64,000 nt of DNA from a bacterium (lineage in GTDB: Bacteria > Zhuqueibacterota > Zhuqueibacteria > Residuimicrobiales > Residuimicrobiaceae), in NCBI GenBank assembly GCA_029554865.1, contig JAKPUX010000025.1, positions 1 through 64,000 of the forward strand, given 5' to 3'. This document shows, in pieces, positions 1-13,976 of this stretch. The first letter of the stretch is position 1; the number at the start of each line of letters is the position of its first letter. Under the pieces are notes generated by a model. That model was not told the origin of the DNA, ran no database searches, and was given only the letters and a program-made list of their open reading frames with translations. Position numbers and translations under genes: made by a program.

Positions 1-3000
1 AATCAGGGGGGCAGCACAGTCGAGATCGATGACATCAACAGCCGGCTCGATTTTACGACACCGGGGTTCATTCTCGGACCGCCCCGGCTGGTTCAAAACG
101 GCACCATACTCCGCGGCAACCAGTCGGATATCCTGCGCTTCCCGGTCCTCAGGAATGGAAATGCGCCTGCTGCGGTGACCATCAGCGCGACTATTAATTA
201 TCAGGTTCTCAACTCCGGCGCTCCTCGTACCCTGGTCTCCCCGGTCACCGGCAATGTCCGCTTGCAAAACAGGGCGGCCAATTTTGTCCAAAAGATCCGC
301 CTCGATCCGGGCATCCTCACCGAGGACAAGCTCGCCCCGTGGCGCGTCGTTCTCACCCTGGCCAGCAGTGCGACCGATGGCGACCTCCAGATCAATCTCG
401 ACGACGCCGACAGCACCTTCGTCCGCTTTCTGGATTATCAGCTCCCGCTGCCGGCCCGCCTGGCGGGCAACGGCACCCGCGTGCTCAAGTCCGGCACCAC
501 GGACAGCCTGATATTCACCGGCATCGTCCCCGTCGACACCAGCGGATCTTTTGCCATCACGGCACGGGTAGCTGCCCGGGACCTCAACAGCAGCCTCGCC
601 GTCAGCGCTGCACCGCCGCAGTCGGTTGCCCTCGTGGTACAGAATCCCCCGAGCCTCGCAGCCCTGACCAATTCCCTGCAGCCCGCCTATGTTTCGGGAG
701 GTACAGTCTACCAGTTTCAGATTAACGTCGTCAATAACGGTGGATCAACCCTGCTCCTGGATCCCACCCGGACTGCTTTCGCGATCGTGGACACCACGAC
801 CGGCCTGGAGCTCTATTCCTCCCTGCTCGACGCCTCTTTCGGATCAAGCCTGCCGGGCAACATGAGCTCGCGCACGCTCTATTTCCATTTCAAGGATCTT
901 CCCGCCGGCATCGCCCCGGGACGCTATCGCACCCGCCTCCTGCTCGCCGGCACGGAAAACCGCAACGCCTTCAGCCAGACCCTGGAGCTGAGCAATAACA
1001 GGGTCACGGTGGCGAGCCCGCGTGAGGTCATGATCACTTCCCTGCGCAGCGAGTCGCCCACCGTCACAGCGGGGCAGGGACTGCCCTGGTTCATTGCACT
1101 GGAGGTGACCAACAACGGCAGCAGCACCCTGCGCCTCGACCAGTCCAGCATCACCTTTTATCGCAACAATGTCGATGTTTCCTCCTCCTTCGCCCTGGTC
1201 GTGCCGGATACCTTCACCACGGGCCTGGCGACCATTCCAGGCGACACCACCCGGATCATCCGCTACCGGGTCGATGCGGTCGATGCGGATCTCGAGCCCG
1301 GCCAGATTGTCATCGCGGGCCATATCTGGCTCACGGATGTAGCCCAGGCCTATCGCCGTTTCGATGAGCAGACCGATCAGGGCAATTCCGGTTATGTCAC
1401 CGTGCAGGCCCCGGCGGAAGCCCTTTTGATCTCCTTCTCGCCCAGCCAGAATTCTGTGACCAGGGGCCAGCAGGAGCCCTGGACGATCTCCGCGCGGGTG
1501 AAGAATCGGGGTGGAAGCATCCTCGCCCTCGATCCCGCCCGGCTGGAGCTCCACTTCAGCGCAGGAGACACCCACTTCGTCTTCCAGCAGCCCAGCCATT
1601 TCCTCGGCAGCGGCGATACCCTTCTGCTGCCGGGCGTTGAGGATACCCTGCGCTGGACTGTGGATGAGGTCTCGGCGGAGTCGAGCCTGCCTGGCCTGGT
1701 GCGGGTGGAGGCGGCGATACCCCTGAGCGAACTCAACAGCGGCCGTCTCTATACCCTTGAGACCTCCTCCGGCAATGCCGGCTTTGATATTGCGGTGCAG
1801 GATTCTGCCGCAGCGCGGCTCGCCGGCTTTAGAGTGGTGGTGCCGCAGGACTCTCTGGTTAATGCCGGACAGAGCTTTTACGTTCAGGCCTGCGTGAAAA
1901 GCCTTGAAAATCGGGACGGGCTGGAAAATGTGCGCGTGCGCTTCGCCGCCGACGGATATCTCTCCTTCCCTGAAGGCAGCGAGACCGTGCTCGGACCCAT
2001 CCCCGCCGGCGACAGCCTCTGGACTGTGCCCGGGATCCTCGTCAAGGCCGATACCATGGCGGGCGTCGATCCGACCCTTTTTGCCCGGATCCTCTCCGCT
2101 GCCGCGGCCAATACCGGCCAGCCGACCCTCATTGAACCAGCCCGCGCCGGGAGGGATTCCTCCAGGACCATCCACATCCAGAAGCCGGGCGCCCTGACGG
2201 TGACGCGGATCTTCGTCTCCCAGGACACCATCCCCTCCGGGTACAGCCTGGACTGGACCATCCAGGTGGATGTGACCAATCCCCGTGAGGGAACCCTGCT
2301 GCTGGAAGCACCCAGGGCGGGCGATATTTCGATCAAGCAGGGCTTCGTCATCCGCGCCCCGGAACTGACTCCGGCCGAACGTACCCTCTCCCCCGGAGAT
2401 ACCCTCCGGGTCATCTATGAGGTCATTGCCTCCAGTTCCGGCAGCGGCCGGCTGCCGATCACGGCCCAGCTCGCGGCCAGAGATGTCAACGACACCCTGC
2501 GCGTGGTCTCCACCTCGGCCACAACCTCAATCTTTGTCTCCACCAGCGCGCGCGTGCGCATCGTCCGGACCGCGGTCAACGCCGACTCCAACTTTGTCGA
2601 TGCCGAAGGGATCGGACATGTCAATACCCGCCAGCCCTTTTATGTTGATGTAGATATCGAAAACAGCGGCGGACAGCCGCTTAAAACAGTCTATGTACGG
2701 CTTGCCGGCGTCCGTTCGCCGGTCGCCACCCCCCTTCAGTTCATCGAAAATCTGAGCACCTTTGAGGGCCCCCGCCGCCTGAGATTCAGCGTGCAGGCGG
2801 ACAGTCTCGAAAACCTGGCCGGCGAACTTTTCACCGCCGAAATCACCCAGGCCGCCGGCGAAGACGGCTCTCCTGCCTTCATCGCTCCCGCCACAGATGC
2901 CCTGGCGACGGCCCGCATCTACCGACCGGCGGTGCTGCAGCTGGTCAGTACTTCGGCCCTTAATCCGGGCACTGAAAGGATCGTCAGTTACGGACAGGCC

Positions 3001-6000
3001 TTCCCGGTGGAGGTCGTCGTGCAGAATCTGGGTTCGGAGCCGGTCAGCGGCGTGACCCTGACGATGCGGGCCGATCCGGCCGACCGGGCCGGCATCACGA
3101 CCACGCCCCTGCTGTTAGCCAAGACACTCGCCGCCGGAGATACCGGCAAGGTCGTTTTCACAGCCACGGCGGGCAGTCAGAGTGGAGAGGTGCTTCTGGT
3201 TTCGGATGTCACCACCTCAACCGGCCAGAACACCGGGCTGCCCGTGCCCTTGCAGCGCGCCGGGCAGGACTCTTCGAGCCTGGTGACGATCGAATCGGGC
3301 GCACGGCTGACTATTCTCTCGGTGCGGGTGGTGCCCGCCGCCGTTTCGGCCGGCGATGCCCAGAACGATACCCGCATCTATGTACAAGTCGCCAATACCG
3401 GCGATGCGGATCTGCGCTTTCTTGGCATCTCGCCCGATAATGTCCGCTTTACGACCAATGGCATTCTGGATGAAGAGTACCGCGTTAACGCCCCCGCCAA
3501 ACTGATGGGCTCCGACAGCCTGGTTTTGAAAGGCCAGGCGCAGGACTCGCTCCTTTATATCGTCACCCGGATCGGGGACATCGCCGGGGATGCCGAGGTC
3601 AGGGTGCAGCTCACTGCGATGGATCTGAACAGGAGCCCCTCAGAAGCGAATCAGATGATGGCCACCGGCACCACCAGCCTGGAGGTGACCAGCACCTCCT
3701 GGGTGCGCATCAACCAGACCCTGGTGAGTTCTGCCACAGCCTTCGATGAGCAAAATACTCCCCTGGTCAACCGTGGCCGCCAGTTCATCCTGGCGGTGGA
3801 GGCGGAGACCAGCGAACTCTCCGGTGTGGATTCAGTCTGGGTTCGTCTCACAGCGGAGGGGGCTTCCAGCATCGTCCAGCCCCTGCTGGTGATCCCGACC
3901 ATCAACAAGGGCGGCACGGGCCGGGCCGAGTTCACTATCATCGCTGACGACAGCTGGGATGGTGCGCTGGGTGAAATCCGCGAGAGTTTCAACGCCCAGA
4001 TCCTTTCCGCCAAGGCGGTGGGCTCCTCCCTGGCTGCACAGGTCCGGGCGCCGGTCCGGCCGGTGGACGCACTGGCGACGGTGCGCATCCAGAATCCGGC
4101 GCGCATCGACCTCCGTCTCGCCCTTGCGGCCGGCCAGGATTCCATCCTGACGGCGAGTCAGGAGTTCAGCCTGGTGGTCAGTCTGGTCAACCTCGGCTCC
4201 TCCGCCATGCGGGACGGGCAGTACACGATCACCCTGCCGCCGGGAAACAAGTACCGCCTTATCGGGGGCGAAACGGAACGCTCCTTCGATGTACCGCTCG
4301 GCTGGACGAGCTACACCGACACCCTCCACCTGATCGCGCCTGACCAGGATTCCTTCAGCGACACCATCCGTGTCAACCTCACTCGGGTGCCGCAGGATGT
4401 CAATATCGCAGCACCCGCTGCGACCGAGTCTGTGCAGGCGGCTGCAGTCGTCACGACCCTGAGGTCGGGACTGGCATTGAATCTCTCCATCTATTCACCC
4501 TCCGGTGCCCAGGACCGGATTCTCTCCACGGCCCAGCAGATGGTGCTGCGCGCGACCGTCCAGTCGACCGACAACATTCGAAACAAGAGCGTCACCCTCA
4601 AACTCCCGATCTCCCCTGCCTATGTTCTGCTTAGCCCTGCGTCGCAGGCGGTGGCCTCCAGCCGGGATACGGTCTACTGGCGCGTCCAGGTTCCTGATGC
4701 CGAGACCGTAATGGCCCATATTTTCGAGGCCACGGCGCGCGGGCAGTCCGCGGAGAGCGAACTGATCCAGACCCGTACCGCAACTATCGATCAGATCGTA
4801 AGCCGCGCCAGCCTCTGGGTCGATGACCTTGAGGTGAGTTCCCCGGCAGTAGGGGTGATGGAGAGCGGCCAGGCCAATTTCTCCGTACGCCAGCAGGCCA
4901 TCCTGAGAACCAGGGTGCGCAATCTCGGCGCCGCCCGCGTCGGGGCGACTGGCAGGATCACCCTCTCCCTGCAGAACAGCGGTTTGACGCTGGTCTCCTC
5001 TGATTCAGCCAAGGGCTTCACCATCGGCAGCTATGTAACCTGGAACGTCCAGGCTTCCGATGTGCCCATCAGCGAGATCCGGGATATCCGTGTCGAGATC
5101 TCCACCATACCCATGGACGAGAATACCAATGCCCCGGCGGCTATCGCCAATGGTTCGGCGACGCTGAATGTCCTCACCGAGGCGCGGGGGACAACGCGCA
5201 TCGATCAGTTCTATATCAGCAGCCCGGCTGGCGCCCTTGACAATTCGGTCTCTGCGGAACAAAGCTTTGTGGTGACGGCGGAGATCACCTCCACCTCGGT
5301 CCGTGAACTGCAGGCCGAGATCAGCAGCGCCGGGGATTTTTCGACCAATACACCGTCGGTTACGGTCCCGGCCGGGAATCGTCAGGTGGTGACCTGGACG
5401 GTAAAGGCCCCGGCGGAGGCCGGATCCAACACCCTGACCCTGACGGTGAGCGGCAGGGATTACCGTTCGAACATTGCCCTGACCAACCAGGTCCGCGCCC
5501 TCAATGTGACCACCCAGCCGCCGACCCGTTTCACCCTGACTCCGCGCATCATCTTCCCGGCGGGGCTGAGCAACAAGGTCTCCAGTGAATCGCCGATGCG
5601 GCTGGCCCTCTACATCGATCATCGTGAGGAGACCGCCCCCCAGGTGGCGGGCGAAGCGGCTACCATTCGTCTCAATGTCCCCGCCCGCTTTCTCGACGGC
5701 AGCGAACCCCTGATCAAGAGCGGCAGTGACAGCCTGGTCTGGAACCTGGCCGCCCCGGCGGTTTCGCAGGACACTCTTTTTGATGTCCAGTTCAGCGTCA
5801 CAGCTCTGCCGAAGGATGCCAATTCCGGTCTGGAGGCGACGACGGAGTTTATGAATGTCTATTTCCCGATCTGGGTCGTGCGCAAAGCGCGGCTTGAAGT
5901 GCTCGCCCAGGTACAGGGCCGGTCGGGGACGACGCCAATACCGGTGCGCATCGGCAATGAGTTCGACCTCTTTTCGATCCTCTCCAATCTCGGCTCTGCG

Positions 6001-7074
6001 GATTACTACGGTTCCTACCAGGTGCAGCTGCGGCTGCCCTCGGGCTATACGAGCGCGGACGGCCTGACCGTAAGCACCGAGAGCGACACGGTGAAGTGGC
6101 GGGTCAAGGCGCCGGATGTATTCAGGGAGACCCCGGATACCCTGATGGTAAAGCTGCTCAGTGCGCCGAGGGATTATTTCTCCAAAACCCCTGCTGATAT
6201 CGCGCAGGATTCGGCGATTGTGCTGATCTCGCCTGAGGCTGGTTTTATGGTGGCCAAGTCCTTTCCTGTGCGCACCGGATCGGTCGGCCTGCGCGGCGGC
6301 GCCAGCCTGCCCATGCTCGGCCTCTCTCTGCAGAACAAGGACCAGTCGATCGGCAGCCGGTCGTTGCTGGATACCATCAAGGTCTCTTTCCGCAACAAGC
6401 GCGGCAGCGCGGTGGCGGCGCGGTCGGTGGTGAGCCGGATCGCCGCCGTCCGGCACGGCAATCCCGCTGAGGTGCTGGCTGAGAACAATAGTCCCGGCGC
6501 GGCCAGCGAGATGGTGCTCAATTTTGACAAGGCTGTTCCCGACACGATCCGGGGCAGCGACCTCTTCGCCATCGATATCCTTATCGATATCGCTGCGGAG
6601 GCCAACCTCACCGATTTTGTCATGGTGGTGGATTCGGCCCGTGCGATAGTAGCCAGGGACGCCATCTACCACAACCGGCTGAGCATCGCCGACTCGACCC
6701 TCAATCGCGTCCAGTATCTCGGCTTCTCCTCCGGCACCCTGGTGGTGATGCAAAACAACCTGGAAGAGTCTTTTTGTAATTATCCCAATCCCTTCGGCAC
6801 AGCGTCGCGCCCGACCACCCGCTTTGTCTATTATCTCAAGCAGGCGAGCGACGTCCGTATCAAGATCTTCACCCTGACCGGAGATCTGGTACAGGCCTGG
6901 GAGTACACCAGGGCGGCTCATCCGCGGCAGACCAGCGCCGGAGTTCATCAGGATGAGGTCATCTGGGACGGCCGCAACGGCCGCGGCGAGAAGGTGATGA
7001 ACGGCGTCTATCTGGCCTATCTGCAGACCGATTACGGCGAGATGGCGCTCACCAAGATAGCAGTTGTCAAATAA
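1..7074 (+). CDS. Giant secreted Ig-like repeat protein with C-terminal sorting-type domain (5' partial)
   Basis: The reading frame is open from the first base, so the N-terminus and any signal peptide lie outside the window; at least 2,357 residues are visible. The protein is a chain of about fifteen similar units of 110-150 residues. Each has a short beta-strand entry, a Gly-Gln-like turn and a V-x-N-x-G stretch, as in CARDB or other Ig-like adhesion/scaffold domains. The C-terminal ~100 residues contain NYPNPF, then KIFTLTGDLV, WDGRNGRGEKV and NGVYLAYL. These are the hallmarks of FlgD-like or type IX secretion (type A) sorting domains of FCB-group bacteria. The inferred role is a large exported or surface-attached protein. 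The next gene encodes a PorV-like barrel protein, consistent with secretion-linked function. The substrate or ligand is unknown. Confidence 0.8.
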   Translation, partial: NQGGSTVEIDDINSRLDFTTPGFILGPPRLVQNGTILRGNQSDILRFPVLRNGNAPAAVTISATINYQVLNSGAPRTLVSPVTGNVRLQNRAANFVQKIRLDPGILTEDKLAPWRVVLTLASSATDGDLQINLDDADSTFVRFLDYQLPLPARLAGNGTRVLKSGTTDSLIFTGIVPVDTSGSFAITARVAARDLNSSLAVSAAPPQSVALVVQNPPSLAALTNSLQPAYVSGGTVYQFQINVVNNGGSTLLLDPTRTAFAIVDTTTGLELYSSLLDASFGSSLPGNMSSRTLYFHFKDLPAGIAPGRYRTRLLLAGTENRNAFSQTLELSNNRVTVASPREVMITSLRSESPTVTAGQGLPWFIALEVTNNGSSTLRLDQSSITFYRNNVDVSSSFALVVPDTFTTGLATIPGDTTRIIRYRVDAVDADLEPGQIVIAGHIWLTDVAQAYRRFDEQTDQGNSGYVTVQAPAEALLISFSPSQNSVTRGQQEPWTISARVKNRGGSILALDPARLELHFSAGDTHFVFQQPSHFLGSGDTLLLPGVEDTLRWTVDEVSAESSLPGLVRVEAAIPLSELNSGRLYTLETSSGNAGFDIAVQDSAAARLAGFRVVVPQDSLVNAGQSFYVQACVKSLENRDGLENVRVRFAADGYLSFPEGSETVLGPIPAGDSLWTVPGILVKADTMAGVDPTLFARILSAAAANTGQPTLIEPARAGRDSSRTIHIQKPGALTVTRIFVSQDTIPSGYSLDWTIQVDVTNPREGTLLLEAPRAGDISIKQGFVIRAPELTPAERTLSPGDTLRVIYEVIASSSGSGRLPITAQLAARDVNDTLRVVSTSATTSIFVSTSARVRIVRTAVNADSNFVDAEGIGHVNTRQPFYVDVDIENSGGQPLKTVYVRLAGVRSPVATPLQFIENLSTFEGPRRLRFSVQADSLENLAGELFTAEITQAAGEDGSPAFIAPATDALATARIYRPAVLQLVSTSALNPGTERIVSYGQAFPVEVVVQNLGSEPVSGVTLTMRADPADRAGITTTPLLLAKTLAAGDTGKVVFTATAGSQSGEVLLVSDVTTSTGQNTGLPVPLQRAGQDSSSLVTIESGARLTILSVRVVPAAVSAGDAQNDTRIYVQVANTGDADLRFLGISPDNVRFTTNGILDEEYRVNAPAKLMGSDSLVLKGQAQDSLLYIVTRIGDIAGDAEVRVQLTAMDLNRSPSEANQMMATGTTSLEVTSTSWVRINQTLVSSATAFDEQNTPLVNRGRQFILAVEAETSELSGVDSVWVRLTAEGASSIVQPLLVIPTINKGGTGRAEFTIIADDSWDGALGEIRESFNAQILSAKAVGSSLAAQVRAPVRPVDALATVRIQNPARIDLRLALAAGQDSILTASQEFSLVVSLVNLGSSAMRDGQYTITLPPGNKYRLIGGETERSFDVPLGWTSYTDTLHLIAPDQDSFSDTIRVNLTRVPQDVNIAAPAATESVQAAAVVTTLRSGLALNLSIYSPSGAQDRILSTAQQMVLRATVQSTDNIRNKSVTLKLPISPAYVLLSPASQAVASSRDTVYWRVQVPDAETVMAHIFEATARGQSAESELIQTRTATIDQIVSRASLWVDDLEVSSPAVGVMESGQANFSVRQQAILRTRVRNLGAARVGATGRITLSLQNSGLTLVSSDSAKGFTIGSYVTWNVQASDVPISEIRDIRVEISTIPMDENTNAPAAIANGSATLNVLTEARGTTRIDQFYISSPAGALDNSVSAEQSFVVTAEITSTSVRELQAEISSAGDFSTNTPSVTVPAGNRQVVTWTVKAPAEAGSNTLTLTVSGRDYRSNIALTNQVRALNVTTQPPTRFTLTPRIIFPAGLSNKVSSESPMRLALYIDHREETAPQVAGEAATIRLNVPARFLDGSEPLIKSGSDSLVWNLAAPAVSQDTLFDVQFSVTALPKDANSGLEATTEFMNVYFPIWVVRKARLEVLAQVQGRSGTTPIPVRIGNEFDLFSILSNLGSADYYGSYQVQLRLPSGYTSADGLTVSTESDTVKWRVKAPDVFRETPDTLMVKLLSAPRDYFSKTPADIAQDSAIVLISPEAGFMVAKSFPVRTGSVGLRGGASLPMLGLSLQNKDQSIGSRSLLDTIKVSFRNKRGSAVAARSVVSRIAAVRHGNPAEVLAENNSPGAASEMVLNFDKAVPDTIRGSDLFAIDILIDIAAEANLTDFVMVVDSARAIVARDAIYHNRLSIADSTLNRVQYLGFSSGTLVVMQNNLEESFCNYPNPFGTASRPTTRFVYYLKQASDVRIKIFTLTGDLVQAWEYTRAAHPRQTSAGVHQDEVIWDGRNGRGEKVMNGVYLAYLQTDYGEMALTKIAVVK

Positions 7075-7095
7075 CGCATCGAGCAGTTGGCCATT

Positions 7096-9084
7096 GTGAA
7101 ACCAAATACCAGAAAATATCTCCTCTCTTTGCTCTTCCTGCTGCTTCTTCAGGCCGGAGGGGCGTACGCGCAGCAGGTGCTGCAGGATCGAGCCTATGGC
7201 GGAGCCAATGATGTCTTTGACCTTCCCGTCGGGGCCCGGGCTCTGGCCATGGGCGGGGCCTATGTCTCGACGGCCGATGATCCTTTCGCCCTATACTGGA
7301 ATCCAGCCGCCCTGGAGAATGTTCAGAATATGGGCGTCGGGCTCTACTATTCCAATCTGACCGCGGGCACACAGTACAGCTATCTCGGCTATGCTCACCC
7401 CACCCTTTTTCTGGGCACCTTCAGCCTCGGCATCATCAGTCTGTCGACGCCGGACATCGACATCCGCGACGAGTTCGATCCGATGAAGTTAGGCTCGCTC
7501 TCCTACAGCCGGAACATGCTGCTCTTCGGCTACGGCTACAAGCCTCTCAACTGGCTTGCTGTCGGGGCCGCGCTCAAGGTCGAGCGGGTTTCGCTGCCGG
7601 GCTATCCGGATGGAGCCACGGGGCAGACCGGCAGCCTCACCGAATCCGCCTTGGGCGCGGACATGGGGCTGGTCTTCACTCCCGGGCTGGCGAGCCCCTA
7701 TCTGAAGGATCTCACCCTGGCTGTGAGCGTGCAGAATGCGATTCAGCGCTCCATGCGCGCGGTTGATGAGCGTGAATCCACGCCCCGCACCTTCCGTCTG
7801 GGGATGGACAAGAGGATCGGCATCGGTGATGACGGCAGCAGTATGACGCTGGCCTTTGAGTATGACAAGATGAAGACGATGCCCGCCCACACCCATCTGG
7901 GATTGGAGTACAGCTTTCAGGATATGTTCGCTCTGCGTACGGGGCTTTATCGCAATCACTTTACGATCGGGGGCGGCGCCAAGCTGGCCGGTGTCCAGCT
8001 TGATTACTCTTACTGGACGGGCGATGATTCCTGGCTGAGCAGCAGCCATCGCATCTCCCTGGTGCTGAACATCGGCAAGAGCCGCGAATTGCGCATGGCT
8101 GAATATCAGGAGCGTGAGGCGCGCCGCATCGAGATGGAGCTGGCGGCCAAACGCCAGGCTGAACGGAACGAGGCCATTGTTTCGGGCATGAGCCGTGCGC
8201 GGGTCCTGGTCGGAAAGGGTGATTACCCCGGGGCTTACAGCGTGGTGAGCCGGGTGCTCTTTTACGATGTGACCGGCAGCGATCCGGATCTGGAGGAGGC
8301 GCGGCAGCTTTTGCAGCAGATCAACACCGCTTTGGAGGAGCAGCGCAAGCGTGAGGAGGCGGCCATTCTCGCCAAGACTGAGGAGGAGATGCGCATCCGC
8401 CGCAACAATCTGCTCATCGAGCAGCATTACCAGAAGGCCCTGAACGCCTACAGCCTCGAGGATTATCAGACCGCCATTCAGGAGTGCGATCAGGCCCTCG
8501 CCATCGATCCGAACAGCGAGCGGGCTACTGACCTGAGACGCAAGTCCGATGAACAGCTGCGCCGCAAGATCATGCAGCTGGCTGAACGCGCGCGCCAGCT
8601 CCAGGCTCAGGATCGCGGCTACGATGCCATCACCCTCTACAATCAGGCCCGGCAGATGGCCAAGGGGATTCCGGACATCGAGACCTTCCTGGCGGGGCAG
8701 ATCTCTTCGATCGAAAGCCGGCTCAGCCGGGAGGATTTGATGCGGCGGGCGGCGGCGCAGGAGATGAGCCAGAACTGGGCCGAGGCTGCCTCGCTCTACC
8801 GGGAAGCCCTGCGCTACGATCCCAACAACCGCTCCCTGCAGGAGCGCTACAACGAAGCCAAGGCCCGGGCGGAAGCGCGCGACATGGAGATGCCCGAAAA
8901 TGTGCGCGAGCTCTACCGGCTCGGGGCACAGGCCTATGCCCAGCACAAGTATGATGAGGCGGTGCGCCACTTTGAGGAGGCGCGCAAGCTGCAGCCCCTG
9001 AATAAAAAGATCCTCAAGGCCCTCGATTCAGCCAAAGAGAATTTGCAGCGGCAATCTTCGAACCAGGGCACCCAGAACAAATAA
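7096..9084 (+). CDS. PorV/PorQ-type outer-membrane barrel protein with TPR C-terminus
   Basis: A hydrophobic signal peptide (roughly residues 7-26, ending in AYAQ) leads into a UPF0164/PorV-like barrel. Its typical opening is FDLPVGARALAMGGAY followed by DPFALYWNPAAL. Aromatic-rich beta strands continue to about residue 330. The C-terminal half is charged and helical, with TPR-like repeats (for example YQTAIQECDQALAIDPNSE and YDEAVRHFEEARKL). PorV proteins of the type IX system sit in the outer membrane and shuttle substrates with C-terminal sorting domains, which fits the upstream repeat protein. The gene starts 21 bases after that gene's stop, so the two probably form an operon. I took the GTG at 7096; a TTG at 7087 is in frame and neither has a strong ribosome site. 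The barrel-plus-TPR fusion is longer than plain PorV. Confidence 0.75.
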   Translation: MKPNTRKYLLSLLFLLLLQAGGAYAQQVLQDRAYGGANDVFDLPVGARALAMGGAYVSTADDPFALYWNPAALENVQNMGVGLYYSNLTAGTQYSYLGYAHPTLFLGTFSLGIISLSTPDIDIRDEFDPMKLGSLSYSRNMLLFGYGYKPLNWLAVGAALKVERVSLPGYPDGATGQTGSLTESALGADMGLVFTPGLASPYLKDLTLAVSVQNAIQRSMRAVDERESTPRTFRLGMDKRIGIGDDGSSMTLAFEYDKMKTMPAHTHLGLEYSFQDMFALRTGLYRNHFTIGGGAKLAGVQLDYSYWTGDDSWLSSSHRISLVLNIGKSRELRMAEYQEREARRIEMELAAKRQAERNEAIVSGMSRARVLVGKGDYPGAYSVVSRVLFYDVTGSDPDLEEARQLLQQINTALEEQRKREEAAILAKTEEEMRIRRNNLLIEQHYQKALNAYSLEDYQTAIQECDQALAIDPNSERATDLRRKSDEQLRRKIMQLAERARQLQAQDRGYDAITLYNQARQMAKGIPDIETFLAGQISSIESRLSREDLMRRAAAQEMSQNWAEAASLYREALRYDPNNRSLQERYNEAKARAEARDMEMPENVRELYRLGAQAYAQHKYDEAVRHFEEARKLQPLNKKILKALDSAKENLQRQSSNQGTQNK

Positions 9085-9163: not shown

Positions 9164-12100
9164 TTGTTCCAGAATATTCTAAAAGAGCAGCTGAAGGTAC
9201 CCGCCCGGATCGAATTTCTCGGCGAACTGCGGGATTTCGTCACCAAGGTTGGCCACCGCCACGGTTTCTCAGAGCGGGTGATCAATGCCTTCAAGCTCTC
9301 CATAGACGAGGCGGCCACCAACATCATCAAGCATGCCTACCGCGACTGGGAAGGCAGCATCACAATTCGCGCCATCGTCAAGAAAAACAGCCTCACCATC
9401 GTCCTGGTTGATCAGGGCAAGTATTTCGATCCGCGTCAGGTCAGCGATCCCGACCTCCAGCGCTATGTCGACATCGGCAAGAAGGGCGGCCTGGGAATCT
9501 TCATCATGCGCCGGCTGCTCGACGAGATCGATTATCGCAAGACCGAAGAGGGCAACGAGTTGTGGATGGTCAAGCATCGCGACGTTGCGCGCAAGCGCCG
9601 CCTCGCAGTGCCCTCGCTCTCCATGACCCTCAAGGCGCGCTACTGGCTGATATCGACCTCTGTTTTCACCCTCTTTTTGCTCGGGGTTCTCGTCTACAAC
9701 TTTTTTCGCAGTGCCGACTCTATCACTGCCGATTTTCTCGCCCGGGGGCGCACCGCCCTCTCGGTGATGACCTCGGACATATCGGCCAATCTGCAGCAGC
9801 AGCTTCCCGAGACCACGCGCCAGAGCATGGTGGAGGGGACCAATCTTCCCGACGACATTGATATCCTCGCCCACACCCTGCCGCCGCTCAACACCCTGCA
9901 GAATTCGGAATACCGGGATATCCTCTATCAGGCGCTTATCGCCGACAATAACCAGTACATTCTGGCCAGCACCGAGGGCAAGCTGATTTTCACCCGTTTC
10001 AATCGGCCGCAGGAAACCGGCAAGCTGCAGAATGATGTCCTGCGTTACACCTTCCCTTCAGGGATCGAGGTGCTGGAAATTACCTCCCCGGTTCTGGATG
10101 AGTCCGGCAAAACCCTTTGCACCGCCCACTTTTTCATCGATCACGCTGCCATCAGCAAGGAGATCAGCAGCGAGCGCTGGAGCAACGCCCGGATGCTGGG
10201 CCTGATCTGGCTCATCGGCGCCGCCGGTCTCTTTTTGCTCATCATCCTAGTGATGAACCCCTTCCGGCGTCTCTCCGAGTGGGTCAAACAGCTCGGACAG
10301 CCCGGTGCCGCTGACGAGATGGACATCGATGCCACAACCGAGATCGGCGAGATCGCCCAGGCCTTCAGTGATATCACCCTGAAGCTGCGGGAATCCCAGG
10401 TCAATATGGCCGAACAGGAACGGCTGCAAAAGGAGATGCAGGTCGCCCAGGAAATCCAGCAGACCCTGCTGCCGGGCGAATTTCCCGAGATCGAGGGTTA
10501 CGGAATCAGCAGCTATTACGCCGCCGCCAAGGAGGTGGGAGGCGACTATTATGATTTCGTCGAGGTGGACAAGGATACCCTGGGCATCGTCGTCGCCGAT
10601 GTTTCGGGCAAGGGGGTTCCGGGTTCACTGGTCATGACCATGATCCGCACCGCCCTGCGCACCGAGGCGCGCGGCGTCAAGGATGCGGCCGAGGTGCTGG
10701 CGCGCGTGAACGACTTTGTCGTCGCAGACATGAAAAAGGGGATGTTCGTCACCCTTTTTTATGTGATCATCGATTCCAAGAAAAGGCGGCTCAACTATGC
10801 CAGCGCCGGACACAATCCGATGATCCTCTATCGCGGCAGCCGCAACAAATCCTATTACCTCAATCCCCACGGCTTCCCCATTGGCATCTCCCTGCCGGAC
10901 AAGAATCTCTTCCGCAACACCATTGAGTCGGACACCCTCTCTCTCAATGAGGGCGACATCCTGCTGATTTACACCGACGGCATCACCGAGGCGATGAACC
11001 GGCGGCGCCAGCTCTACGGGGAGGAGCGTTTTCTCAACGTCATCCGTGAAAACGGCCTTCTGCCGGCCCAGGATTTTGTCGACAAGCTGCACGAGGAGAT
11101 CCTCTCCTTTACCGAGGGCACACCGCAGAGCGACGACATCACGCTCGTCGCCATCAAGGAAAAGTCTTCAGCGGAAAAGATCGAGCTCGAACGCGCCAAG
11201 CGGGTCTATCGCCGTCTCCAGCAGGGCAGCAGCATCAAGGAGGCGTGCGAGAGCGAGGGCCTTTCCTCCTACTCCTATTATTCCAAATACAAAGAGATCT
11301 TTGAGCAGGGTAACATCGAGGAGCTGGTCAGCGTCGAGAGCGAGTCCATCGAAGCCAAGCATCTGAGCATCGAGGAGAAGACCCGTCTTTATGATGTGAT
11401 CATGCGCTACCCCGAGTACGGAGCCAAGAAGATCCATGAGGAGCTCCTCACCGAGCGCTATGGCTTTATGGATATCCATCCCGCCAAGATCTACGAAGAG
11501 TTGGTGCGGGCCAAGCTGAACACGCGCGAGCTGCGCGAGGCCTTTGTTCATCGTGGCGGTAAAAAGCGCCGACCCAAGCCGCCGGGTACCCCGATGCTGA
11601 CGCTGGACGGGCGGGTGATCATCCAGAAGGGCGGGCTGGCCGACATGGAATCCGATCACGAGCCGGCGGAGGCTCCCGGTGAAGCCCGCAAGGGTCGTCC
11701 GGCGGCGGAACCGCCTAAACCCGCACGCGCGGCTGCAGCCCCCGGGCGTCAGAGGGTGGCGTTGCCGCATCAGCCTGGCATGAGCCGCTTCCAGGGACGG
11801 GATATTCTCTCCTACCAGATCGAGGAGCTTCTCGACGTCCCGCTCGAGGATCTCTTCGACAAACGGCTGGGCGGGGCGGCGCCGGAGGCAGAGTCCTATA
11901 CGGATGAGTTCGTCGAGCCTGATGAATCCACCCAGGCTGCCGCCAGACCGGCCGCCGAGCCCGATCTATCCCTTGCGGAGATGGGTTTTGAATATGCAGC
12001 CGGCGCTGGTGAAAAGGGGGCCCCCGTCGAGGAGGAGCTGCTGGATCTGCCCCCGGAGATCGTTCCCCTCGAGGCGGTTGCACAAGCTGAGGCCGGTAAC

Positions 12101-13126
12101 GTGGAGAGCAATCTGCCCGAAAGGAATATCGAGCCCCCCCTGCCGGAGCCGGGGCTGGAGCTGCGTGATGATGAAGATGATCTCACCAGCGACGATCTCG
12201 ATTTTGCGGATATTCTCGAGACCGGGGGCGGGCTTGAGGATCCCTTCGCGCTTCGCGAGGAGGGCAGGAGATTCCCGGCCGCGCCGATGGAAGAGGCGGT
12301 CGTCCTTCCCGCCGCCGAACCGGAGAGGGAGGATTTCAACCCACCCCAGGAGGATGCCGATCCGGCGCTGCGCGACATCTTTGAGGAGTTTCTCGAGATC
12401 GATGAAGAGGCCGGCCTGATTTCCGAAAGTGGCGAGCTGGAGAACGAGATCATCGAGCAGATATTGCAGAACGAGATCGCCTCGCGGATGAACTGGCAGG
12501 TCGGGGAGCAGGAGGGCGCCGGGCCGGACCTGGCGGGGCAATGGCAGCTGGAGGAGGCGGCCGGCGAGGTTGGTCATGCCGAGGAGGAGATAAAGGACCA
12601 GCATCGCCTCTCTTTCGACGAGCTCATCGATCTGCTCAGTGCCGAGAAGAATGGCGGGAAGGAGTGGCCGGAGCCGGGCCTCGAGGCGGCGGAACGGGCG
12701 AGGAGTTCGGAGGGGGGAGGAAGTGCCGCGGCGCCGGCCCATACTGATGATCCCGACCGCGACCGCGCCTACGCCAATGCCCTCAGCCGTTTTCTGAACG
12801 AGGAGTACAGGCAATCGATCGAAATCTGCTCGGAGATTCTGGCGCGAGACGGCGGCGATACCCAGGTGCGCGTGCTGCTGGGGCAATCCTATTTCCGCGC
12901 CAACGCTTTCCGTGAATCGGCGCGGGAGTTTCAGCGCATTCTCAAGATCGATCCACGCAACAAGGAGGCGCATGAGAAACTGGGGGTGATTTACGCCAAC
13001 CAGGGGGCGTTTCCGCGGGCCATTGCCCATTGGGAATATCTGTTGCAGCTCGCGCCGGAGCGCCGCGACATTTTTGAAAGCATCCAGAGAGCCAAGCAGT
13101 TCATCAACCAGACCGAGTCATCCTGA
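9164..13126 (+). CDS. Fused RsbW-like kinase / PP2C (SpoIIE-type) phosphatase with HTH-like and TPR regions
   Basis: A 1,320-residue multidomain regulator. Residues 1-140 are a GHKL anti-sigma-factor kinase like RsbW (N-box DEAATNIIKHAY at 49-60, DQGKYFDP at 83-90, GKKGGLGIF at 105-113). Two membrane helices (about 160-181 and 344-364) flank a ~160-residue external sensor region. A HAMP-like segment and coiled coil follow. A PP2C/SpoIIE phosphatase spans about 440-665, with metal-site motifs GGDYYD (459-464), VADVSGKGV, YTDGITEA and SDDITLVAI. Residues 672-715 and 735-795 look like two helix-turn-helix units of the transposase/integrase kind. Residues 800-1200 are acidic and low in complexity, and the end is TPR-like. 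The start is TTG preceded by GAAGAGG. Kinase and phosphatase in one chain imply a self-contained partner switch acting on the STAS protein encoded next. Confidence 0.85.
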   Translation: MFQNILKEQLKVPARIEFLGELRDFVTKVGHRHGFSERVINAFKLSIDEAATNIIKHAYRDWEGSITIRAIVKKNSLTIVLVDQGKYFDPRQVSDPDLQRYVDIGKKGGLGIFIMRRLLDEIDYRKTEEGNELWMVKHRDVARKRRLAVPSLSMTLKARYWLISTSVFTLFLLGVLVYNFFRSADSITADFLARGRTALSVMTSDISANLQQQLPETTRQSMVEGTNLPDDIDILAHTLPPLNTLQNSEYRDILYQALIADNNQYILASTEGKLIFTRFNRPQETGKLQNDVLRYTFPSGIEVLEITSPVLDESGKTLCTAHFFIDHAAISKEISSERWSNARMLGLIWLIGAAGLFLLIILVMNPFRRLSEWVKQLGQPGAADEMDIDATTEIGEIAQAFSDITLKLRESQVNMAEQERLQKEMQVAQEIQQTLLPGEFPEIEGYGISSYYAAAKEVGGDYYDFVEVDKDTLGIVVADVSGKGVPGSLVMTMIRTALRTEARGVKDAAEVLARVNDFVVADMKKGMFVTLFYVIIDSKKRRLNYASAGHNPMILYRGSRNKSYYLNPHGFPIGISLPDKNLFRNTIESDTLSLNEGDILLIYTDGITEAMNRRRQLYGEERFLNVIRENGLLPAQDFVDKLHEEILSFTEGTPQSDDITLVAIKEKSSAEKIELERAKRVYRRLQQGSSIKEACESEGLSSYSYYSKYKEIFEQGNIEELVSVESESIEAKHLSIEEKTRLYDVIMRYPEYGAKKIHEELLTERYGFMDIHPAKIYEELVRAKLNTRELREAFVHRGGKKRRPKPPGTPMLTLDGRVIIQKGGLADMESDHEPAEAPGEARKGRPAAEPPKPARAAAAPGRQRVALPHQPGMSRFQGRDILSYQIEELLDVPLEDLFDKRLGGAAPEAESYTDEFVEPDESTQAAARPAAEPDLSLAEMGFEYAAGAGEKGAPVEEELLDLPPEIVPLEAVAQAEAGNVESNLPERNIEPPLPEPGLELRDDEDDLTSDDLDFADILETGGGLEDPFALREEGRRFPAAPMEEAVVLPAAEPEREDFNPPQEDADPALRDIFEEFLEIDEEAGLISESGELENEIIEQILQNEIASRMNWQVGEQEGAGPDLAGQWQLEEAAGEVGHAEEEIKDQHRLSFDELIDLLSAEKNGGKEWPEPGLEAAERARSSEGGGSAAAPAHTDDPDRDRAYANALSRFLNEEYRQSIEICSEILARDGGDTQVRVLLGQSYFRANAFRESAREFQRILKIDPRNKEAHEKLGVIYANQGAFPRAIAHWEYLLQLAPERRDIFESIQRAKQFINQTESS

Positions 13127-13159
13127 CCCTGGGCGCCCCTGACTTGCTGGATATTTTTG

Positions 13160-13188
13160 TTGACTATTAGAGGCATAAAGGCTATATT
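13160..13188 (+). promoter_or_regulatory. Sigma-70-type promoter for the STAS gene
   Basis: TTGACT (13160-13165) and TATATT (13183-13188) are separated by exactly 17 bases. The STAS gene starts about 125 bases downstream, so it can be transcribed apart from the kinase/phosphatase gene. Confidence 0.6.
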
Positions 13189-13313
13189 TGTCTGCTGGAA
13201 GAACTCGTCCGGACGGGGTATCTGGTGGGATGGCGTGCTTTCGACTCGACATTGCGGTTACAGTCTTGCGCCCAGTTCCTGCAATCGCGAAATAATCTTG
13301 ATGGAGATTCAAA

Positions 13314-13976
13314 ATGGAAGGCATCCAATTGTCAGTGGAGAAGACGGGAACTAAAAACAGTGTATCGATCATCAAGGTTGGCGGATATATTGACACCACC
13401 ACATCATCGGAACTGGAACACGCCCTGAGCACTCTTCTCAAGGCGGGATCATACAATATCATCATCGACCTGGGCAATGTCGATTACGTCAGCAGCGCGG
13501 GCTGGGGCATCTTCATCAGCGAGATCAAGGGGATCCGCGAAAAGGGCGGTGATCTCAAACTGGTGCGCATGATCCCTGAAGTCTATGAGGTTTTCGAGCT
13601 GCTTGAGTTCCACTATATCCTCAAGGCCTGCGACAGCATTGACGAGGCTATAAAGGATTTCGAGCGCACCCTGGGTCCAGTCACCGAGGGGAGCAAGGTC
13701 GCCGAAGTGGATATGGAGGCGGCGCACTCCCGGGGCGGCAGCGAGCGCCGCGAGAGCGCTCCCCGGCCGGAGAGCGGCAGGGCCGACAATCTGGAAGAGA
13801 AGATTCGCAAGATCATCGGACAGGATCCCGAGATCGGCACCATCCAGCTCATCAGGACCCTGAATACGCCGGAGCATGGCAATATCCGTCTCGGCTGGTT
13901 TGCGATGCGCAAGCTCTTGAAAAAAAGCGGTCTGGACAGCAAAAAAGGTCGGGCCCTTCTCAGCTCCGGACGCTGA
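13314..13976 (+). CDS. STAS-domain anti-sigma factor antagonist with extra C-terminal module
   Basis: Residues 1-115 form a STAS domain of the SpoIIAA/RsbV kind, with the conserved phosphorylation-site region NVDYVSSAGWG (56-66; Ser60 or Ser61 is the likely target). The family binds an anti-sigma kinase and is released or captured by reversible serine phosphorylation. Beyond the STAS domain lies a charged linker (about 120-160). A ~55-residue helical tail follows (161-215), containing DPEIGTIQLIRTL and MRKLLKKSGLDSKKG. It resembles residues 740-795 of the upstream kinase/phosphatase. A plain RsbV is about 110 residues, so this protein is twice the usual length. GGAG sits 7 bases before the ATG. 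No sigma factor gene lies nearby, so the final output is unknown. Confidence 0.85.
   Translation: MEGIQLSVEKTGTKNSVSIIKVGGYIDTTTSSELEHALSTLLKAGSYNIIIDLGNVDYVSSAGWGIFISEIKGIREKGGDLKLVRMIPEVYEVFELLEFHYILKACDSIDEAIKDFERTLGPVTEGSKVAEVDMEAAHSRGGSERRESAPRPESGRADNLEEKIRKIIGQDPEIGTIQLIRTLNTPEHGNIRLGWFAMRKLLKKSGLDSKKGRALLSSGR

Follow-up and report, generated by a model that had tools for sequence, protein, structure and literature searches.

The kinase/phosphatase and the adjoining STAS protein (STAS1) encoded in the window, the whole 64,000-nucleotide stretch of DNA analysed here, share a helix-turn-helix (HTH)-like module of ~55 residues that is related to the DNA-binding regions of IS3/IS481 transposases. 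A second STAS protein, STAS2, carries the same module; its gene lies a long way from that of the kinase and heads a set of exopolysaccharide genes. A first-pass annotation had proposed a partner switch in which kinase and STAS protein end in matching tails. That description holds for the kinase and STAS1 but was incomplete, as STAS2 is a third carrier, and it placed both tails at the C-terminus, which is correct for the STAS protein; in the kinase the module is internal, with a linker and TPR repeats following it. The features are listed in Table 1.

Table 1. Features of the kinase/phosphatase and STAS loci; positions are those of the window, except for STAS2
Feature	Position	Strand	Basis
PorV-family outer-membrane protein with TPRs, conserved upstream neighbour of the kinase	7087..9084	+	NF033709 E 5e-38, synteny
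Bifunctional kinase/phosphatase gene, 1320 aa, TTG start	9164..13126	+	ORF, Pfam, full-length orthologues
RsbW-type serine kinase domain, residues 12-137	9197..9574	+	HATPase_c_2 E 6e-27
TM segment 1 (159-181), extracytoplasmic sensor (182-341), TM segment 2 (342-368)	9638..10267	+	hydropathy
HAMP linker of the kinase, residues 361-401	10244..10366	+	PF00672 weak, E 0.018
SpoIIE/RsbU-type PP2C phosphatase, Pfam core 470-665	10571..11158	+	PF07228 E 3e-53
First HTH of the kinase, 672-715, HTH_28/HTH_23 type	11177..11308	+	Pfam
Shared tail module, kinase copy, 734-802	11363..11569	+	hhalign to STAS tail
Basic stretch and near-invariant KPPGTP motif, 803-812, directly after the kinase tail module	11570..11599	+	residue check in orthologues
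Long acidic, poorly conserved kinase linker, 830-1190	11651..12733	+	column identity
Kinase TPR repeats, 1203-1303	12770..13072	+	Pfam; present in distant orthologues too
Probable sigma-70 promoter of STAS1, TTGACT-17-TATATT	13160..13188	+	TTGACA-like box recurs upstream in orthologues
STAS1 gene, 220 aa: STAS domain 13-112, disordered linker 123-156, tail	13314..13976	+	PF01740 E 4e-17, structure model
Ser60-Ser61 codons of STAS1, expected phosphorylation site	13491..13496	+	invariant in 24 orthologues
Shared tail module, STAS1 copy, 158-217, four predicted helices, basic	13785..13964	+	profile, structure model
STAS2, second STAS protein with the same tail	L063 9901-10629 (G000:C217)	minus	profile search

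Independent alignments of the orthologues of each protein identify the two tails as homologous (hhalign probability 96%, E 2.8e-9, 54 columns gap-free) and a second hhalign run aligned 58 columns with E 5.6e-10. The gap-free match that had been read from the letters alone is, with E about 1e-9, well above background, and spans residues 741-796 of the kinase and 158-217 of STAS1. The significance of this match comes from the two families and not from the kinase of the window alone, which matches the STAS-tail family weakly (12 bits, E 0.03). In distant genomes, BLASTP aligns both tails of one genome at 30-39% identity, the best case being 39% over 56 residues (E 2e-11). When either tail model was run against the open frames of all fetched loci, the other protein was retrieved and little else, and a chance match is ruled out by the hhalign and genome-wide profile searches. 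The first HTH of the kinase was considered as a third copy of the tail and rejected, there being no profile match between the two. A tree built from these short sequences places the kinase tails in one group and the STAS2 tails in another, with modest support (0.69) for the kinase split.

Pfam and hydropathy bear out the RsbW-like kinase, sensor, PP2C and STAS domains that had been named from the sequence, and the additional HTH scores above the Pfam cut-off in an orthologue. The N-box (E49/N53), D83/G85 and G108-G111 of the RsbW domain are invariant in 30 orthologues, as are, in the residue check, the metal-binding aspartates D461/D464, D479, D605 and D657/D658 of the PP2C domain. As the kinase N-box and G-boxes, the PP2C aspartates and the STAS serine pair are all invariant, both enzymatic domains are expected to be active. 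Mean column identity is 84% for the catalytic domains and 79% for the tail, compared with 40% for the sensor, a variable region flanked by two hydrophobic segments, and 39% for the linker, which is acidic as originally noted but poorly conserved. The HAMP domain is weak in the window's member and above the PF00672 cut-off in a distant orthologue (L161); the Pfam scan that found the kinase to have this element next to its transmembrane sensor detected no receiver (REC) domain. Within the KPPGTP motif (window 11576-11593), the K, the second P, the G, the T and the last P are invariant in 30 orthologues.

The predicted fold of STAS1 matches SpoIIAA/RsbV structures in the PDB, and by analogy with the corresponding positions in SpoIIAA and SypA, Ser60/Ser61 is the expected site of phosphorylation. 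The order of genes at the kinase locus, namely a large secreted protein, the PorV/TPR protein, kinase, STAS1, Obg and DprA, is conserved, the neighbours being surface-protein and housekeeping genes. As had been stated, no sigma factor is encoded in the genes adjoining the kinase and STAS1, nor is there one in the conserved neighbourhood. Directly upstream of the kinase (window 175-9084) are genes for a secreted repeat protein of 2299 residues, FlgD-like at its end, and for the PorV-family TPR protein; both stay with the kinase across the class, possibly reflecting a link to type IX-like secretion. The PADLOC defence-system models gave no match for the kinase or STAS1, and a search of plasmids returned only STAS-domain matches.

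The likeness to IS3-type integrases suggested by the first reading is real for the kinase and weak for the STAS tail on its own. Over both HTHs, every one of the 23 kinase orthologues tested matches the IS481 transposase model (best E 9e-14), and 21 of them match the IS3 model. Pfam assigns HTH_28/HTH_23 to the first part of this region and HTH_32/HTH_21 to the second, with HTH_23, HTH_29 and HTH_Tnp_1 above their cut-offs in one orthologue, and in a structure model of the region the helices are as expected, the tail being modelled with high confidence. Judged from these sequence matches, the kinase module together with the preceding HTH is an IS481/IS3-transposase-type DNA-binding region. It resembles the N-terminal region of such transposases in its tandem HTH arrangement; the difference is that it is embedded in a signalling protein and kept vertically through the phylum, and that no DDE integrase catalytic domain was detected by Pfam scan in the kinase or the STAS protein. 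The STAS tail is modelled as four helices without a predicted wing, reaches the transposase-type models weakly, has few confident HTH matches and matched neither MarR nor ArsR. Tail profiles searched against solved structures gave chance hits only, and Foldseek with the kinase HTH model returned no significant match, with Pax paired domains and Mu/TnsB transposases among the top ranks.

The distribution of the module was established by six-frame searches of 40 and 82 whole genomes, all KSB1/Zhuqueibacterota-type, with the STAS tail profile. Among the matches listed, the tail is present in 40 of 40 and in 81 of 82 genomes, and its presence in both kinase and STAS proteins extends across the phylum. 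The carriers, again among the matches listed, are STAS1, STAS2, the kinase, paralogues of the kinase and two weak stray hits. One stray is a 66-residue fragment with a stop; the other, a 390-residue frame (G038:C112:73586-74680) that matches STAS and, weakly, the tail (E 0.009), is a possible third STAS carrier. Response regulators and sigma factors with the same tail had been suggested as a further place to look, and none was seen among the matches listed for either genome set. The HTH region of the kinase was tallied in 77 of the 82 genomes, a count that falls to 76 with removal of G039, in which the hit is really STAS2 and STAS1 lies at a contig end; among the good genomes, 48 of 49 and not 49 of 49 have the kinase region. 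Of 60 genomes, 56 are listed with a full-length STAS1 orthologue. A scan of a genome collection with the kinase placed the closest kinases in records labelled KSB1, Calditrichaeota, plain 'bacterium' and, in one case, Bacteroidetes, and we infer that the phylum is the KSB1/Zhuqueibacterota type. Kinase paralogues with open frames of 1638-1993 residues and a diverged tail (G026:C23, G048:C169, G036:C39, G031:C248 and G042:C32) occur in one family of the class. A separate cluster at G000:C390 2720-9448 (L048, L050, L051, L059, L060) encodes four PP2C proteins, a stand-alone STAS protein and an RsbW-like kinase, all without tails.

In every genome checked, STAS2 precedes a Wza/Wzc exopolysaccharide operon. 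In the genome of the window it is followed by genes that Pfam identifies as encoding a polysaccharide export protein, a Wzc-like protein, an NAD epimerase and a bacterial sugar transferase, and the order STAS2-Wza-Wzc-epimerase-sugar transferase is also present in the 13 fetched loci of the class. For L093 and L100, the ORF picker took the opposite frame over STAS2 (and, in L093, over the export gene), and the STAS2 frame was confirmed by profile. In 12 of 12 genomes from other classes, glgA-STAS2-Wza-Wzc is conserved, together with the epimerase and transferase genes wherever the contig extends far enough. A sigma-54 -24/-12 site with no more than one mismatch is located upstream of STAS2 in 45 of 51 class genomes, compared with 1.1% of shuffled sequences, and in most a TGTTTCA/TGAAACA repeat motif (19.4 bits versus about 10.4 after shuffling) is positioned about 100-220 bases above it. 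In 8 of 12 genomes from the other classes, a variant of this site (TGGTAT...TTTGC, at one mismatch) occupies the interval from STAS2 to Wza. The window genome encodes 23 sigma-54 activators. Perfect sigma-54 sites number 9 in the window's genome (G000), versus 1 for a reversed-pattern control, and lie ahead of two dnaK genes, one glutamine-synthetase-like gene and further genes (L146-L154). No sigma-54 sites were found upstream of the kinase or STAS1. A Gibbs search for an operator shared by these two genes recovered only the TTGACA promoter box above STAS1; upstream of the kinase, it gave no motif clearly above shuffles.

Equivalent positions were compared in the tails of 49 kinases, 51 STAS1 and 14 STAS2 proteins, a comparison made post hoc and without a statistical test. 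At one position in helix 2, the kinases have Glu (mean charge -0.92) where STAS1 and STAS2 have Lys or Arg (+0.92 and +0.93, respectively). At one in helix 3, the kinases have Glu or Asp (-0.92), adjoined by a further Glu, and STAS1 has Lys or Arg (+0.96), with STAS2 reaching only +0.36. Helix 3, the would-be recognition helix, is also the least similar part of the two copies. Both tails are net basic overall, those of the STAS proteins having charges of +4 to +11. This is compatible with nucleic acid and with docking alike, so that charge alone does not prove docking. The reversal of charge would suit either docking between kinase and STAS proteins or DNA binding by the STAS proteins alone, and the kinase copy could have lost DNA binding. 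Docking is given a slight preference, since the module is restricted to the enzyme and its presumed substrates: the kinase copy most likely docks onto the STAS copies, the basic tails of which may also bind DNA. The first-pass annotation had suggested that the two proteins bind the same DNA or the same partner, and tails that pair with each other would be the simplest version of the latter.

Partner-switch phosphatases choose their substrates through docking surfaces (PMC11418112). We suggest, tentatively, that a transposase-derived HTH, carried since the ancestor of the phylum by the kinase/phosphatase and both STAS substrates, has been re-used for hetero-docking through faces of swapped charge, a private code that would insulate these proteins among many STAS and PP2C paralogues. 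Such a hetero-docking principle was not found described for partner switches in the literature.

The arrangement as a whole is most readily compared with SypE/SypA, the symbiosis polysaccharide switch of Vibrio fischeri. SypE combines a kinase and a PP2C phosphatase in one protein and sets the phosphorylation of SypA (PMC10120452, PMC4517449, PMC10162802, PMC3610818), a STAS protein that is the downstream output of SypE and the product of the first gene of a sigma-54-driven polysaccharide locus (PMC4517449, PMC10162802, PMC10120452). Common to both systems are an N-terminal RsbW-type kinase and a PP2C domain towards the C-terminus with active-site residues kept, a STAS substrate with a conserved serine, and a STAS gene in first place in a sigma-54-driven polysaccharide locus, which in the window's class is STAS2 and not STAS1; in genomes of other classes the sigma-54 site mostly follows STAS2. 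SypE, as described, has a REC domain at its centre and lacks a membrane sensor, whereas the window's kinase has a TM-sensor-TM-HAMP arrangement, tandem HTHs, an acidic linker and TPRs; SypA has 105 residues and no tail, whereas here there are two STAS proteins, each with a tail. By this analogy, the best reading is that the STAS protein is the downstream output. We consider it fairly probable that these proteins form a SypE/SypA-type, sigma-factor-free partner switch that controls exopolysaccharide, with STAS outputs and the tail as the mark of the cognate set. The membrane-anchored kinase/phosphatase would read a signal from outside the cell, its RsbW domain would phosphorylate, and its PP2C domain dephosphorylate, the conserved serine of STAS1 and STAS2, and these proteins, not the kinase, would be the outputs, the state of STAS2 gating exopolysaccharide production. 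The transposase-derived tail, in exactly these proteins, would mark them as belonging together. The placing of STAS2 under this kinase draws on the shared tail and the similarity of the STAS domains and is weakened by the presence of other PP2C and RsbW proteins in the window's genome.

An alternative with a real, if lesser, chance of being correct is that STAS1 and STAS2 are transcription regulators that bind DNA through their tails, with phosphorylation altering dimerisation and so DNA binding, and the kinase copy being either left over from docking or involved in regulating this step. The precedent is CapS, a STAS-wHTH repressor released through phosphorylation by the GHKL kinase CapK, which itself has an HTH without a known role (PMC13373217). 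The pairing of a GHKL kinase with a STAS protein that has a C-terminal HTH-type domain, the HTH in the kinase, the descent of the tail from a transposase DNA-binding region, and the basic STAS tails with conserved Lys/Arg in helix 3 all agree with this alternative. CapK, however, has the domain order HTH-STAS-GHKL and no phosphatase, the CapS wHTH resembles MarR/ArsR proteins whereas the STAS tail lacks its wing and has few confident HTH matches, and CapK/CapS flank immune operons, their two HTHs not being described as the same module. The motif search also found no conserved palindrome upstream of STAS1, where CapS-type autoregulation would place one, and the motif above STAS2 sits at the position expected for the binding of a sigma-54 activator, of which the genome has many. 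The first proposal, that the tails of kinase and STAS proteins recognise the same DNA, now appears very unlikely. The module is of shared ancestry and, in the kinase, the transposase-type region is complete with its two HTHs, but the opposite charges in helices 2 and 3 and the divergence of the latter disfavour a common target, the kinase is anchored in the membrane and no upstream motif is common to the kinase and STAS1 genes.

The same three domain families, with the same expected chemistry, make up RsbU-RsbV-RsbW and SpoIIE-SpoIIAA-SpoIIAB, and an RsbW-type domain together with a SpoIIAA-like STAS fold might point to a canonical anti-sigma switch. The RsbW domain would then have an additional target, a sigma factor from elsewhere in the genome that it would sequester and that unphosphorylated STAS protein would free, and the tails would only aid assembly. 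We regard this as unlikely: the conserved neighbourhood lacks a sigma factor, the operon linked to STAS2 uses a sigma-54-type promoter, and kinase and phosphatase reside within one membrane protein, whereas the known systems are three separate proteins, without HTH modules, that act on sigma-B or sigma-F. We know of no control of sigma-54 by RsbW-type proteins.

In the SypE/SypA-type switch favoured here, the parts and their chemistry are of known kinds; what is new is that the proteins share a private module and form a three-part set across the phylum. How sigma-factor-free partner switches deliver their output is an open question, with the target of SypA still unknown, and substrates that share an extra module with their kinase, and with almost nothing else in the genome, offer a handle on it, whether the module relates to the output (DNA) or is a pairing code. 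The system would also show a phosphorylation switch making use of a domesticated transposase DNA-binding region. Through it, a regulator central to an entire uncultured phylum is linked to exopolysaccharide and to a sigma-54 promoter; in these bacteria a private phosphate switch probably controls the making of exopolysaccharide (slime).
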